A DNA stretch of 64,000 bases from Rikenellaceae bacterium (GTDB taxonomy: Bacteria; Bacteroidota; Bacteroidia; Bacteroidales; Rikenellaceae): assembly GCA_020860245.1 (NCBI GenBank), contig JAJBUQ010000009.1, positions 133,773 to 197,772 on the forward strand, given 5' to 3'. The notes under the pieces are model-generated. The model saw only the letters and a program-made list of their open reading frames with translations. It had not been told where the DNA came from and did no database searches. Made by a program: the position numbers and the translations under genes. Each line of letters opens with the position of its first letter. Position 1 is the stretch's first letter. This document shows, piece after piece, positions 3,509-51,233 of the stretch.

Positions 3509-5028
3509 TGAAGAAATTGTATGTATTTTTTCAAGGAAAATACAATCAGAATATAGACAGGATACTTGTCGGTAAATTTATGTTCGTATTAATGTCGGTA
3601 GCAGCTACGGTATGGTTTCTTGTCAGGGTAATTCCGAAGCCTTCGCGGGCCGTTTACCCATGCATGCAGGCAGCCGCACCGTTGATGTCTTCCTTTGTGA
3701 TCTGGCTGTTATCAATATCCGGAACCTATGTGACATATAAAAAAGCAGGGAAATATTTAAGAGAGAAAAGATATGTTATGGGGGGAATTTTTTCCATAAT
3801 ATTTTTGTCCGGAATTATATTCTTTACGGTGCATAATTCAGGAATACTTTATTCGCAGGACGGATCGAGATCTCCTAAAAAGCACAATCCTCCGAACACC
3901 CCTCTTGGAACAGGCAAAGGGATATTTCCGGGAAGAGTGGTATGGACCCATGCTCCCGGAGCAGCGCAATGGGACGGAGAGAACGGTTTCTGGTTCGATG
4001 ACGCATGGAACGATCAGTATAAAGCTGATAAACTTATAAGTGCGGCAATTCTTACCTTAACAGATACTGTTGAAGAAAAAGACGGATGGAATAAATTATT
4101 CTGTTACTTCAATAATTCATGCGACAGAGGAGATCGTGGATATATTCGCGGAGAAAACATCGCTATTAAGATAAATCAAAATAATACTGAATCCCATAAA
4201 GACAGTGAAGAATACAATACATCGCCGCATATATTGTTGTCGTTACTGAGGAGTCTGGTTTACGGAGCGGGAATCCCACAGGAGAATATTACCGTTTGCG
4301 AACCCAGCCGGTTTATAACGGATTTTATGTTTGCAAAGTGTTTTGCAGAATTTCCTGAAATAAAATATGTCGATTTCGAAGGGGGCAGCGGCCGTATTAA
4401 AACCGGTTATGTTTCTGAGGCTATCAAATACTCTCAAGATAACGGCAAGATGGCTCAGGCAATTGCCGACTGCGTGATGGAAGCGGATTATCTGATAAAT
4501 TGTGCATTGTTAAAAATTCATAATGGCCCCGGCGTCACCTTGACAGCTAAGAATTGGTATGGAGTTACCAGTATCGATAAATATTGGAGAAATAATTCCC
4601 ATGCAGGTTTTAATCAGGATCGCGGAGGAAAAATGGCTTACAGAACCTTTGTCGATTTCATCGGGCACAAAGACCTCGGACAGAAGACACTCCTTTATAT
4701 AATCGACGGACTCTATGGTTCCGGAGATGTAAATGGTATTCCGTCGCCGAAGTGGAATATGGATCCGTTTAACGGTGACTGGGCAAATTCGGTTCTTATG
4801 TCGCAGGATCCACTTGCCGTAGATGCAGTGGGACTTGATTTGCTTGCTGCCGAATGGCCGCAAACGCCGAGTCTTAATTACTGCGATGCTTATCTCGTGG
4901 AGGCAGCAACGATACCCAATTCTCCTTCCGGAGTAATTTATGATCCTGAACGTAACAATAAACCCCTTACGGAACCTCTCGGAGTGATGGAACATTGGAA
5001 TAATCCTGTGGATAAACAATACAGTTGA
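3508..5028 (+). CDS. Membrane-anchored DUF362 domain protein
   Basis: 506 residues. Three N-terminal membrane segments are visible at about 23-42, 57-76 and 90-108, followed by a large soluble part. The soluble region carries DUF362 features: GENIAIKINQNN near 213, and an NTSPH segment followed by a leucine-rich helix and VYGAGIPQENITVCEPSR. DUF362 proteins often accompany Fe-S or maturation systems, but this one lacks the ferredoxin-type cysteine clusters of some relatives. The reaction is unknown. Start overlaps the preceding gene's stop, and a bidirectional hairpin follows at 5085-5105. The DUF assignment is by motif resemblance, so the family name is less certain than the gene itself. Confidence 0.75.
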   Translation: MKKLYVFFQGKYNQNIDRILVGKFMFVLMSVAATVWFLVRVIPKPSRAVYPCMQAAAPLMSSFVIWLLSISGTYVTYKKAGKYLREKRYVMGGIFSIIFLSGIIFFTVHNSGILYSQDGSRSPKKHNPPNTPLGTGKGIFPGRVVWTHAPGAAQWDGENGFWFDDAWNDQYKADKLISAAILTLTDTVEEKDGWNKLFCYFNNSCDRGDRGYIRGENIAIKINQNNTESHKDSEEYNTSPHILLSLLRSLVYGAGIPQENITVCEPSRFITDFMFAKCFAEFPEIKYVDFEGGSGRIKTGYVSEAIKYSQDNGKMAQAIADCVMEADYLINCALLKIHNGPGVTLTAKNWYGVTSIDKYWRNNSHAGFNQDRGGKMAYRTFVDFIGHKDLGQKTLLYIIDGLYGSGDVNGIPSPKWNMDPFNGDWANSVLMSQDPLAVDAVGLDLLAAEWPQTPSLNYCDAYLVEAATIPNSPSGVIYDPERNNKPLTEPLGVMEHWNNPVDKQYS

Positions 5029-11046: not shown

Positions 11047-11077
11047 TTTGGAATTATACAAATTATTTATACTTTTG
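11047..11077 (+). promoter_or_regulatory. Promoter for the SRP RNA gene
   Basis: TTTG at 11047-11050, a 19-base spacer, then TACTTTTG at 11070-11077. This is a full match to the Bacteroidota promoter. The RNA's first paired base at 11082 is five bases after the box, the expected distance to the start site. Confidence 0.8.
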
Positions 11078-11081
11078 TGCC

Positions 11082-11185
11082 CGGGTAAGTCTTACACGAC
11101 CAGCTCCTGTTTAATCCCCCAGGACCGGAAGGTAGCAAGGGTATAATGGTCGAGCGGTGCGATGTAAGTAGCTTACCCGTTTTTT
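11082..11185 (+). ncRNA. ffs: Signal recognition particle RNA, small bacterial type (4.5S)
   Basis: RNA scaffold that binds Ffh and targets membrane proteins to the translocon. The conserved domain IV tip is present: ACC-GGAA-GGT at 11124-11133 with its GGAA tetraloop (11127-11130), followed by the AGCA internal-loop strand. The arms pair in order: CGGGTAAG (11082-11089) with CTTACCCG (11172-11179), CTTACA (11091-11096) with TGTAAG (11163-11168), and CGACCA (11097-11102) with TGGTCG (11147-11152). No Alu domain is present, as expected for the short form. The closing stem runs straight into six T residues, so it doubles as terminator. Exact ends are inferred from promoter and T-tract. Confidence 0.93.
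11172..11185 (+). terminator. Intrinsic terminator of ffs
   Basis: The 3' half of the SRP RNA closing stem (CTTACCCG) is followed directly by TTTTTT at 11180-11185. It separates ffs from the yrdC promoter 18 bases downstream. Confidence 0.75.
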
Positions 11186-21785: not shown

Positions 21786-21811
21786 AAGAGAGGTTTTATC
21801 CTCTCTTTTTT
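21786..21811 (+). terminator. Terminator after lepB
   Basis: AAGAGAGG (21786-21793) pairs perfectly with CCTCTCTT (21800-21807) around a 6-base loop, followed by further T residues to 21811. It separates dapB-lepB from the yigZ unit. Confidence 0.85.
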
Positions 21812-21833
21812 ATGTATTCTGGCGATAAAAATA

Positions 21834-21841
21834 TAAATTTG
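21834..21841 (+). promoter_or_regulatory. -7 promoter box for yigZ-pyrBI
   Basis: TAAATTTG is an exact TAnnTTTG match ending only eight bases before the yigZ ATG at 21849. With the usual 4-7 base offset the mRNA would start within about four bases of the start codon. Confidence 0.6.
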
Positions 21842-21848
21842 TTATTGG

Positions 21849-31342: not shown

Positions 31343-31368
31343 TAACCGAGTATTTTAATGGTTTTATT

Positions 31369-31400
31369 TTTGTAGTATTATTGACTTAAGCTTAACTTTG
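31369..31400 (+). promoter_or_regulatory. Promoter for the suf operon (-33 and -7)
   Basis: TTTG at 31369-31372, a 20-base spacer, then TAACTTTG at 31393-31400. Both match the Bacteroidota consensus. The box ends 20 bases before the sufB ATG. No IscR/SufR-type operator is recognisable. Confidence 0.75.
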
Positions 31401-31419
31401 CAGATCGAATCAGCATAAA

Positions 31420-36171: not shown

Positions 36172-36786
36172 ATGCTTCAGGAAATTATAGCCGGATACAA
36201 TGTTATTCTCGCGAGTAATTCTCCGAGGAGAAAGGAATTGCTGAAAGGTTTAGGGATAAATTTTTCCATACCGTCAAATTTCGATGTCGACGAATCGTTT
36301 CCTGCGGATATGAACCCTGAATATGTTCCTGTTTATCTCTCCGCAAAAAAATCGGACGGTTATCCGCAAGCATTGTCCGATAAGGATATTTTACTCACTG
36401 CCGATACGGTAGTTATCAAAAACGGAATAATTCTGGGCAAACCGGAGAACGCCTCTCAAGCCTTCGATATGCTATCGATGCTGTCGGATGGAATGCATAA
36501 AGTCGTTACCGGTGTGACTTTGAAGAGCAGCAAACATCGGAAATCTTTTTCATGTATTACGGAAGTCGAATTCGATTTTCTCTCGGAGGAAGAGATATAT
36601 TATTACATAAATAAGTATTCTCCTTATGATAAGGCCGGAAGTTATGGTATTCAGGAATGGATCGGATATGTGGGAATTAAAAGTATTCGCGGATCATTCT
36701 ACAATGTCATGGGTTTGCCGGTACAGATGTTATACAGGAATTTGAAAGAATTTGTTAAAAATTCCATAAATGATAATTATTTATAA
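36172..36786 (+). CDS. maf: Maf-family nucleoside triphosphate pyrophosphatase
   Basis: Hydrolyses non-canonical or excess dTTP/UTP-type nucleotides, limiting misincorporation. The N-terminal VILASNSPRRKELLKGLGI and the central LTADTVVIKNGIILGKPENASQAFDMLSMLSDGMHKVVTGV are family motifs; SYGIQEWIGYVGIKSIRGSFYNVMGLP closes the fold. 204 residues is normal. Last gene of the suf unit. No terminator of its own is seen in the next 90 bases; the first is at 36911-36952. Confidence 0.94.
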   Translation: MLQEIIAGYNVILASNSPRRKELLKGLGINFSIPSNFDVDESFPADMNPEYVPVYLSAKKSDGYPQALSDKDILLTADTVVIKNGIILGKPENASQAFDMLSMLSDGMHKVVTGVTLKSSKHRKSFSCITEVEFDFLSEEEIYYYINKYSPYDKAGSYGIQEWIGYVGIKSIRGSFYNVMGLPVQMLYRNLKEFVKNSINDNYL

Positions 36787-36844
36787 ATCAACTTTAAAAT
36801 GGTGTTTGAACGGTAAAATTGAGGAAAAATAATTATTGTCAGTA

Positions 36845-36874
36845 TTGTTTTTTATAAAATTTCATCTATCTTTA
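36845..36874 (+). promoter_or_regulatory. Promoter-like pair in front of the candidate small transcript
   Basis: TTG at 36845-36847, a 19-base spacer, then TATCTTTA at 36867-36874, one base off TAnnTTTG. The same final-A variant stands before parA and the prolyl oligopeptidase gene. Start would be at about 36879. Confidence 0.4.
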
Positions 36875-36878
36875 CAAT

Positions 36879-36952
36879 ATGAAGTTATGCCAATTGCTTC
36901 ATAGTAATGAGGGCATAGAATAATCTTTTTTAGGATGTTCTATGCCCTTTTT
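36879..36952 (+). ncRNA. Candidate small transcript with a 14-codon ORF and terminator
   Basis: Between the -7-like box and a strong terminator lies a 74-base unit. It begins with TATGAAG (36878-36884) paired with CTTCATA (36897-36903). The same bases encode a 14-residue ORF, MKLCQLLHSNEGIE, from 36879 to the TAA at 36921-36923. TATGCC in the first loop (36886-36891) could pair with GGCATA of the terminator stem, giving an alternative fold. No co-directional gene follows directly. Whether it is an sRNA, a leader peptide remnant or chance is open. Confidence 0.35.
36911..36952 (+). terminator. Intrinsic terminator 3' of the maf region
   Basis: GGGCATAGAA (36911-36920) pairs perfectly with TTCTATGCCC (36938-36947), 17-base loop, then TTTTT. 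It works only on the plus strand; the minus-strand flank has no T-tract. It may end both the suf-maf message and the candidate small transcript. Confidence 0.8.
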
Positions 36953-37409
36953 ATTTGATTATCGGGAAAAAATCTATTTTTTCCATTATCCTTTTTTCCG
37001 GAGAGTATCTAAAGCAGAAATGTGTGATTCCATTGGTTACACCGACATAAGGAGCCTTTATAATCATGTTGTATTTACAGACCTGATTGATTATTTTCTC
37101 TGTTAATTTGATATGGGGGGCTTTGCATTCTATGAGCAGAAATGGTTTTGCCGTAGAATCATAAACCACAATATCGGCCCTTAATGACGTATTATTTAGT
37201 TTTATAAGATGTTCCTGTTTGATAAATAGTGCGTTAGCGTTTTTGTAATCGATAAGATAGCGGATAAAGTTTTGCCGTACCCATTCTTCCGGAGTGCATA
37301 CGAGCCCTCTTCTTCGGATATCGTCCCATATTTCTCTTTTTCCGTTATTAATCCTGGTAATCAAATCCGGTTGGGGGATTTTATAAATTTCCTTTTTGTC
37401 TTGTGGCAT
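36951..37409 (-). CDS. Standalone HsdR N-terminal-like nuclease-fold protein
   Basis: 152-residue protein of the type I restriction HsdR_N family seen widely in Bacteroidota without any restriction partners. The putative PD-(D/E)xK core is RADIVVYDSTAKPFLLIECKAP near residue 80-100, with Asp, Glu and Lys (ECK) in the expected order. The N-terminus EEWVRQNFIRYLID is typical. No hsdM, hsdS or HsdR helicase part is present, so classical restriction is unlikely; the role is unknown. I choose ATG 37409 because the frame's earlier codons lie upstream of a -7 box. Its stop overlaps the T-tract of the convergent terminator. Confidence 0.82.
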   Translation of the reverse strand: MPQDKKEIYKIPQPDLITRINNGKREIWDDIRRRGLVCTPEEWVRQNFIRYLIDYKNANALFIKQEHLIKLNNTSLRADIVVYDSTAKPFLLIECKAPHIKLTEKIINQVCKYNMIIKAPYVGVTNGITHFCFRYSPEKRIMEKIDFFPIIK

Positions 37410-37424
37410 TCGGTATGATTTAGA

Positions 37425-37432
37425 CAAAATTA
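37425..37432 (-). promoter_or_regulatory. -7 promoter box for the HsdR_N-like gene
   Basis: Minus-strand TAATTTTG, exact TAnnTTTG, 16 bases before ATG 37409. It makes an upstream extension of the reading frame improbable. Confidence 0.55.
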
Positions 37433-37493
37433 ATAAAATATATTCATTAAATTCGCAGGAGTATATCATATAAATATTCAAATAAAATTACTT

Positions 37494-39803
37494 ATGGAAG
37501 AAATAAAAAGTAAGAGAGATGAGGCTCTGGAATATCATTCCAGCGGAAGAGCGGGTAAAATAGAGGTTGTACTAACCAAACCATATAATACACAGAAAGA
37601 TCTGTCACTGGCATATTCTCCGGGAGTTGCGGAACCGTGTCTCGAAATTGAAAAAGATCCGGATAATGCCTATAAATATACGGCCAAAGGTAATTTGGTC
37701 GCTGTTATTTCTAATGGCACGGCAGTTTTAGGTCTCGGAGATATAGGTGCCCTCGCAGGTAAACCCGTAATGGAGGGTAAAGGACTTCTGTTCAAAACCT
37801 TTGCGGATATAGACGTATTCGATATTGAAGTGGATACGAAAAATGTGGATAATTTTATTCAAACAGTAAAAAATATATCGCCGACATTCGGTGGAATAAA
37901 TCTCGAAGACATAAAAGCACCGGAGTGTTTTGAAATCGAAGAACGTCTCAGGGAAGAACTCGATATCCCTGTAATGCATGACGACCAGCACGGTACGGCT
38001 ATTATTTCCTCTGCGGCACTTTTAAATGCTTTGGAAATCGCAGGTAAAGATATATCCGAGGTAAAAGTCGTAGTGAACGGTGCCGGAGCTGCGTCCATAG
38101 CCTGTTCCAAACTTTATATTTCTTTGGGAGTCAGGAAGGAGAATCTTGTAATGTACGACAGTAAGGGAGTGATAACGCGGGATCGTAATGATCTGAACCC
38201 GATGAAACAAATTTTCGCCACCGACAGGAATATCAGAACTCTTGCGGATGCTATAAAGGGTGCGGATGTATTTCTCGGACTGTCTGTTGCGAATATTCTT
38301 TCGCAGGACATGGTTCGTTCTATGGCAGATAATCCGATCGTGTTTGCTCTGGCAAATCCTGATCCGGAGATATCCTATGACGATGCTATGGCATCGCGGA
38401 AGGATATAATTTTTGCAACCGGACGCTCGGATTACCCAAATCAGGTAAATAATGTTTTGGGATTCCCTTACATATTCAGAGGGGCGCTCGATGTTCGTGC
38501 CACTAAGATCAACGAAGAGATGAAGATCGCGGCCGTGAAGGCTCTTGCCAAGTTGGCGAAAGAACCGGTTCCGGATATCGTATTAACAGCTTATAACGGA
38601 GCTAATATCTCGTTCGGCAGGGACTATCTTATTCCCAAGGCTCTGGATCCGAGGCTTATTACCGAGATATCCGCCGCCGTGGCCAAGGCTGCGATTGATT
38701 CCGGCGTGGCACGAAAAGAAATTATCGATTGGGAGTCTTACCGTTTCGAACTTCAGAAAAGGATGGGGCGGGATAATAAACTTCTGAGAGCTATTAGAAA
38801 TAAAGCGAGAAGCTGCCCTGCAAAGAGACTGGTATTTGCTTATGCTGAAAATATTAATACCTTAAAGGCGGCTTCCGATATACTTCACGACAAGATAGCA
38901 TTCCCGATTCTAATCGGCAACAAGGAGAGGATATCCGCGATAATTAAAGAAAATAATCTGGAGATAGATAAAAGTCATATTATCGACCATACAAGCGACA
39001 GCGAATCCCAAAGGAGACGGGAATATGCCGATGTTCTGTATAGTAAGCTGAACCGTAAGGGATTGTCCAGAGAGGATTGTCTAAAGAATCTTAGTAAAAA
39101 CAACTGGTTCAGTCTTATGATGGTATATTGCGGCGATGCGGACAGCGTTATCCTGAATTATAGTCGAAGATATACCACCGCGCTCGAACCTGCGCGTAAG
39201 ATCTTCCAGAGCATCAACCGCTCTACTTTGGCTGCAATGGTGATTGTTATGACTAAAAACGGACCTATGTTCTTCGTGGATATGGCAGTGAATACCAATC
39301 CAGGGGTTGCGGAACTTGTAGATATAACGATTCTTGCAACTAAAACGATCCGCAAGCTCGGTATCGAACCTGTAACGGCAATGTTGTCATACTCTAATTT
39401 TGGAACCGATACTGAGCGTGATGCGACGACTGTTGCACAAGCAGTTAAAATTATCCACGACCGTTACCCGCAGTTAGTTGTAGACGGGGAGATGAAGGTA
39501 GATTTTGCTTTGGATAAAACAGCGAGAATGGAAAAATTCCCGTTCTCCAAACTTCGGGATAGGGAAGTAAATACTTTTATCTTTCCTAATCTGTCCGCGG
39601 CCAATATATCATATAAACTTGTCGAGGAGATAGGAGGGAATGAAGTTACAGGACCTATCTTACTTGGACTCAACGGAGCTCCGGGAGTCCATATAATTTC
39701 AGAGTCGGCATCGGTAATGTCGATCGTAAACCTTGCTACACTATCTGTTTTGGATGTCTGCGACGCAGGAGATAGGTGTAATGTCGAAGAGATAAACTAC
39801 TAA
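37494..39803 (+). CDS. maeB: NADP-dependent malic enzyme with phosphotransacetylase-like domain
   Basis: Decarboxylates malate to pyruvate, making NADPH. The N-terminal malic domain (about 1-420) shows [19 protein letters not shown] near residue 38, the metal-site [21 protein letters not shown] near 160, the Rossmann [16 protein letters not shown] and [11 protein letters not shown] near 282. The C-terminal third is a phosphate acetyltransferase-like domain, regulatory in this enzyme class. 769 residues is typical of MaeB. A good promoter box was not found; TAAATTCG at 37450-37457 is one base off. lacZ follows after ten bases. Confidence 0.95.
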
Positions 39804-51040: not shown

Positions 51041-51076
51041 AATTATACTAATAATTTTAATTGAAAATCAGATTCG

Positions 51077-51084
51077 CAAAGGTA
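51077..51084 (-). promoter_or_regulatory. -7 promoter box for the nqr operon
   Basis: Minus-strand TACCTTTG, exact TAnnTTTG, 37 bases before nqrA. The divergent gap of 193 bases to parA is very AT-rich, with long T runs at 51107-51155; no further gene or clear parS site was found in it. Confidence 0.6.
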
Positions 51085-51204
51085 ATCTTTTCTGAAATTA
51101 TATGGATTTTTTTTATTAACTTTTTTTAATAATTTATTATATTTTTTAACCCGCATGATAACGCCGAATTTCAGTAAAGGATTTTTTATAAAACATATTT
51201 CCTA

Positions 51205-51212
51205 TATATTTA
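51205..51212 (+). promoter_or_regulatory. -7-like box for the parA operon
   Basis: TATATTTA, one base off TAnnTTTG, ends 22 bases before the parA ATG. A T-run about 20 bases upstream could serve as a weak -33. Confidence 0.4.
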
Positions 51213-51233
51213 CATATTAATTATAAGCAGATC

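Follow-up and report, generated by a model that had tools for sequence, protein, structure and literature searches.

A putative small RNA gene between maf and an HSDR_N_2 gene in a Rikenellaceae genome

Layout of the locus and of the element

The window, a 64-kb stretch of a Rikenellaceae genome (G000), contains a run of genes on the suf side that ends with maf (36172–36786, plus strand), which encodes a Maf-like nucleotide pyrophosphatase. It is followed on the plus strand by a putative small RNA unit (36845–36956), identified from sequence and folding and consisting of a Bacteroidota-type promoter, a hairpin in the 5′ part and, at its end, a strong intrinsic terminator, and then on the minus strand by a gene for an HSDR_N_2 protein (36951–37409; Pfam E-value 7.5e-33), the start of which would more likely be the ATG at 37409 than the TTG of the listed ORF that reaches 37481. 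The next sense gene (37494–39803, plus strand) codes for a maeB-like malic enzyme with a C-terminal phosphotransacetylase domain. It starts at 37494, 538 nt beyond the element and past the minus-strand gene, in agreement with the original prediction, which placed maeB over 500 bases away behind a gene on the opposite strand.

The predicted promoter (36845–36874, plus strand) is sigma-ABfr-like, as judged from its sequence, its identity to the related genome G001 and the TAnnTTTG box consensus given in the excerpt of PMC7366714 used here. It consists of TTG at 36845–36847, a spacer of 19 nt and the box TATCTTTA at 36867–36874, which is one base from the consensus, as originally proposed. From the position of this promoter, we infer that the transcript would start at the A of the ATG at 36879 or at an adjacent base; together with the position of the terminator and the retention of the unit in G001, this predicts a small transcript of ~75–78 nt (36879–36956, plus strand). 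A 14-codon ORF, MKLCQLLHSNEGIE, occupies 36879–36923 of the plus strand and reads ATG AAG TTA TGC CAA TTG CTT CAT AGT AAT GAG GGC ATA GAA TAA. The 5′ hairpin (hairpin 1; 36878–36903, plus strand), which was delineated by folding and by sequence comparison with G001, is formed by the arms TATGAAGT (36878–36885) and GCTTCATA (36896–36903) around the loop TATGCCAATT. The core TATGCCAATTGCT (36886–36898, plus strand) is a candidate seed that is also found 11 nt past a TAnnTTTG box in the genome G020. The intrinsic terminator (36909–36952, plus strand), supported by its sequence and by the pair changes in G001, has a 14-bp main stem between GAGGGCATAGAATA (36909–36922) and TGTTCTATGCCCTT (36936–36949), with the T-run after it. 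The promoter pair, the ATG at the start, the 14-codon ORF, the hairpin and the strong terminator of the original prediction were therefore all present in the sequence.

Both window strands were scanned for TTG-N17-21-TAnnTTTR with a terminator of at least seven ungapped pairs 20–100 nt further on. By this rule the 64 kb contained one promoter-plus-terminator unit on the plus strand and none on the minus strand, and the single one is 36845–36956. The 36909–36952 terminator was absent from the output of a standard terminator scan of the window because that scan is limited to loops of at most 8. The fold of the element has a z-score of −7.8, with none of 200 shuffles equally stable, and the terminator accounts for most of this. 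The stability of hairpin 1 is matched by 0.3% of 1000 shuffles in the window and by 17.6% in G001. TATGCC at 36886–36891 is complementary to GGCATA at 36912–36917, a weak complementarity that is equalled by 1.8–2.5% of mononucleotide shuffles.

Conservation in the second genome of the genus

The genus is sampled by two genomes, that of the window and G001 (Rikenellaceae bacterium MI.7_1, a metagenome-assembled genome). The window and contig C34 of G001 are collinear over ~56 kb at ~75% identity, and the element occupies the same place with the same neighbours in both, the gene order being suf genes, maf, element, HSDR_N_2 (minus strand) and maeB. Positions 36843–36911 are identical to G001 at 67 of 69 sites (97.1%); the corresponding values are 53.6% for the 56-nt gap that separates the element from maf, 65.5% for maf, 67.3% for the HSDR_N_2 gene and, on average, 76.3% for aligned non-coding sequence. 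At this last identity the binomial probability of 67/69 is ~2e-6, a figure that describes one genome pair because the clear element is carried by two genomes only. Among 705 aligned non-coding 60-mers (~56 kb), the element ranks second, behind the locus of the Bacteroidales small SRP RNA that served as a yardstick of conservation (RF04183, window 11076–11182, 99.1 bits in Rfam). An element nearly as conserved between two species as the SRP RNA locus is a concrete candidate for a Rikenellaceae small RNA.

Within the promoter, 36867–36874 is wholly identical in G001, and 36843–36866 contains two mismatches. Other non-coding stretches of the window also contain runs of 32–37 bases that are identical to G001 (e.g. 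37424–37458), so conservation of the promoter alone is unremarkable; the run in the element extends into the transcript, passing the promoter, covering the first 20 transcribed bases and resuming after one insertion to 36911. Hairpin 1 is unchanged in G001 except for this 1-nt insertion, which bulges its 3′ arm, and no covariation was found in it between the window and G001. In the terminator stem, six letters differ and 18 of 18 pairs are kept, with two double-sided changes, two one-sided changes and none that breaks a pair. As good a result was obtained with 107 of 500 shuffles, in a control that has little power with two sequences, and sliding the partner breaks the structure. At the level of sequence, the two genomes thus show a terminator stem under selection and a strongly conserved promoter and 5′ part. 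The identity to G001, the 60-mer rank and the single unit in the window scan together rule out a chance overlap of signals, which the original prediction had considered as an origin.

That prediction also considered a relic left by insertion of the HsdR_N-like gene. This gene was found in 96 of the 101 Rikenellaceae genomes searched, and in 58/58 family genomes when completeness of ≥90% and contamination of ≤5% were required. Judged by eye from ORF patterns, it adjoins a divergent maeB in G020 and G006, and a convergent acetyltransferase-like ORF follows. It is therefore probably an older neighbour of maeB and not an insert into an attenuator–maeB unit, and it probably lay next to maeB before the present neighbourhood of the element arose; an origin of the element as a relic of such an insertion is ruled out. 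A tree of the HSDR_N_2 gene from 19 of 30 loci, with the rows of G112, G008 and G122 in a wrong frame, had a backbone without resolution and is given no weight here.

Several other conserved non-coding stretches were observed. The run at 37424–37458, 35 bases identical to G001, lies between HSDR_N_2 and maeB, which are divergently oriented, and probably reflects overlapping divergent promoters. The stretches 51041–51100, 51167–51226, 21786–21845 and 31358–31417 are 87–93% identical to G001, and 21786–21807 contains a terminator.

Interpretation of the conserved unit

With moderate confidence, we read the element as the gene of a stand-alone small RNA in one genus of Rikenellaceae, most likely from a lineage-specific family; the RNA would act by base pairing, and its terminator would be shared with suf–maf. 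Its own housekeeping-type promoter would start the transcript at ~36879, and the transcript would end ~75–78 nt on, at the intrinsic terminator, which probably also ends the upstream suf–maf mRNA. By analogy with FopS and GibS of Bacteroides, the invariant 5′ stretch GUUAUGCCAAUUGCU, located partly in the hairpin loop, may base-pair with mRNAs in trans. Retention in two related bacteria at nearly the level of an essential RNA makes an ordinary type of small regulatory RNA the probable identity of the unit. Of the options in the original prediction, a small RNA is the best supported, by the conservation in G001 and by the bounded unit.

In the excerpt of PMC7366714, a stand-alone intergenic small RNA is one with a transcription start site and a Rho-independent terminator outside coding sequences; at 36845–36956, a promoter and an intrinsic terminator enclose a short non-coding unit. 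The closest architecture described is that of FopS from Bacteroides thetaiotaomicron, which according to the excerpt of PMC11697453 has 14 paralogs and combines a conserved 5′ stretch and a terminator with a sigma-ABfr promoter. The 5′ stretch of FopS is described there as single-stranded and the family as multicopy, whereas the element may form a 5′ hairpin and has one clear copy per genome. GibS, as presented in the excerpt of PMC7366714, is likewise intergenic, with its own promoter and terminator and a highly conserved 5′ sequence, but it is ~145 nt long, has hairpins in its middle part and is open at the 5′ end, in contrast to the ~75 nt predicted for the element. The papers on Bacteroidota small RNAs consulted here (PMC7366714, PMC11697453 and PMC10861873) concern one species, B. 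thetaiotaomicron. In titles and abstract starts among the listed literature matches for Rikenellaceae and small RNA, no small RNA made by these bacteria was recognised.

The conserved stretch could also be a promoter or a site of protein binding that precedes a plain terminator of the suf–maf operon, with any short RNA as a by-product. A terminator scan detected no other terminator between maf and 36909, and identical runs of similar length occur elsewhere in non-coding sequence, as described above, which would fit this explanation. Nevertheless, we regard it as unlikely, as the identity includes the first 20 bases of the predicted transcript and, beyond one insertion, reaches 36911, and terminators need none of that. 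Translation of the 14-codon ORF as a leaderless micro-protein (MKLCQLL...) is highly improbable, the least probable of the readings considered. The ATG sits at the expected start, and LCQLL can be read in the window, G001 and G020. However, the one-base insertion in G001 changes the ORF from the 14 codons of MKLCQLLHSNEGIE to eight (MKLCQLLS*): the 20 bases from the ATG to the insertion are identical, with the third positions of codons 1–6 all kept, and the frame breaks in codon 7. Retention of all silent sites in the first six codons is RNA-like. The corresponding frame in G020 has GTG where the ATG would be and lacks a stop ahead of the terminator. The break in G001 and the lack of a stop in G020 indicate that the peptide is not the conserved part, and the function of the element probably does not lie in the overlapping ORF.

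These changes also bear on the attenuator layout recognised in the original prediction. In a translation- or ligand-controlled attenuator, the leader would pair with itself (1:2) or with the 5′ arm of the terminator (2:3), or the terminator would form (3:4), and read-through would yield a long transcript that crosses the HSDR_N_2 gene in antisense and extends to maeB. When the leader and the terminator 5′ arm were folded without the 3′ arm, they paired at −12.0 kcal/mol in the window and −12.9 kcal/mol in G001, energies that were matched by 2.4% and 1.0%, respectively, of 1000 dinucleotide shuffles of the leader. The insertion in G001 lies opposite the base that would be bulged in the 2:3 pairing of the window, giving nine perfect pairs (TGCTCTCAT/ATGAGAGCA, by eye), which is suggestive. 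In these folding models the layout is feasible in physical terms, as parts of the leader could pair before the 3′ arm of the terminator is made. On the other hand, the optimal alternative pairing differs between the two genomes (TTATGCC with GGCATAG in the window, TGCTCTCAT with ATGAGAGCA in G001), and the fraction of the arm that is paired is ordinary (at least as high in 34.5% of shuffles for the window and 16.1% for G001). With the terminator formed, the complete structure is ~13–16 kcal/mol more stable than that with an enforced TATGCC pairing (−32.4 versus −16.0 kcal/mol in the window and −24.1 versus −10.7 kcal/mol in G001). The TATGCC/GGCATA pairing put forward originally can form in the window, but it is weak relative to shuffles, is one pair short in G001 and does not occur in the G020 cousin, whose terminator arm pairs little with upstream sequence (a level equalled or exceeded by 88.9% of shuffles). 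A conserved leader ORF was not found in G001 (14 versus 8 codons) or G020 (no stop before the terminator), the following gene is antisense, and the sense gene maeB is 538 nt off, with the same gene order in G001.

Leader-peptide attenuators of the trp/his type have a short ORF over leader hairpins and end in an intrinsic terminator. The element resembles them in that its short ORF overlies leader hairpins and ends in an intrinsic terminator, but it differs in having no regulated sense gene, no conserved ORF and no run of codons for one amino acid. We therefore consider an attenuator rather unlikely: in both genomes the leader can pair with the terminator 5′ arm, but at different positions and with mixed outcomes against shuffles, the ORF is not kept, and no sense gene directly follows. 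The original prediction named as refuting evidence, among other things, relatives that share the terminator but not the upstream hairpin, the ORF or compensatory changes, and about half of this was observed, as the ORF is not kept, the TATGCC pairing is weakened, and compensatory changes occur in the terminator only and not in the upstream hairpin. The leader-peptide reading of such units can thus be tested, and is here weakened, through a single relative.

Possible relatives and pairing partners

Among genome contigs, a set that may not include the window's own genome, the 20-mer ATGAAGTTATGCCAATTGCT was found in G001 only. In 268 family genomes, GAAGTTATGCCAATTGCT with at most two mismatches was exact in G000 and G001 only, and the core was present within 600 nt 3′ of maf (246 nt for one locus) in 0/28 other family loci. 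A covariance model built from the window and G001 sequences, the search suggested in the original prediction, gave matches at E ≤0.1 in 5 of the 268 genomes (G000, G001, G020, G017 and G066). The same genes follow the element in G001; beyond the genus, only the G020 match exceeds a terminator, and those in G017 and G066 were rejected as relatives because they comprise terminators only.

The candidate in G020 (genus g20; covariance E-value 0.06) is intergenic, between two protein genes, and has the box TATGTTTG, the same 11-nt spacing, TATGCCAATTGCTCCAT / TATGCCAATTGCTCCATAAT and then a strong unrelated terminator. It is the sole exact match outside the genus to TAnnTTTR-N11-TATGCCAATTG among the matches listed for the 268 family genomes. 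On folding, the 5′ hairpin of the element is not formed in it. The pattern TATGYCAATTGCTNCATARTNNA with at most two mismatches occurred in 8/268 genomes, compared with 0 for the reversed control: it is exact in G020 and at a second G001 locus, has one mismatch in the window and two in five others, and does not cover the G001 element itself because of its insertion. From the five two-mismatch cases, ~0.003 exact matches would be expected, although the true surprise is smaller because the degenerate letters were chosen after viewing G020 and the second G001 site. Judged by its sequence, the G020 locus is probably, or at least possibly, a cousin of the element.

Wider searches were less informative. 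A looser order-wide pattern matched 164/393 genomes, too many to be of use, and two exact order-wide matches outside G000, among the matches listed, had no terminator in the stretch viewed (by eye). Rfam 15, which may not include FopS, detected only the SRP RNA in the window at the gathering score and nothing on the element, for which the best match at E ≤10 was RF00238 (28.2 bits, cut-off 45). On the G020 element, a weak match to L20_leader with 30.9 bits, below the cut-off of 58.7, was not accepted as real. A phage or plasmid origin was considered and set aside: the element had no match in a phage sequence search and eight weak partial matches in a plasmid search (E 0.09). Some viral contigs match core patterns.

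Pairing partners were sought as long sites, namely 12-mer complements of the core (GCAATTGGCATA, at most one mismatch), with the element included in the scan. There were 11 in G000, 9 in G001 and 8 in G020, fewer than with reversed-pattern controls (22, 26 and 11, respectively). One site, on contig C35 of G000, is an exact 13-base complement of the core located 17 nt past a stop codon. A blastn comparison of 10 G000 site loci with 8 from G001 gave no match, which leaves the two genomes with no known long target site in common.

The second core copy in G001, TATGTCAATTGCTCCATAATAAA, lies on the minus strand of contig C43 at 127286–127308 (locus L216; positions 4787–4809 of locus L219). The opposite strand is inside a terminator hairpin, and an RNA made from it would complement the core of the small RNA. 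The transporter gene that neighbours this site was not found in G000. A broader reading, which we hold to be very doubtful, is a new Rikenellaceae small RNA family with the core UAUGYCAAUUGCUYCAUA, which in one genus would be fused to an attenuator-like switch with read-through antisense to HSDR_N_2, and for which the complement at C43:127286–127308 would be a sponge or target. On the plus strand of the same contig (L219, ~4300–4570), an intergenic stretch of ~250 nt, which had no Rfam match at E ≤0.5, contains a number of long arms that are complementary to one another and ends in a hairpin with a T-run, and from its sequence it looks like a large structured RNA.
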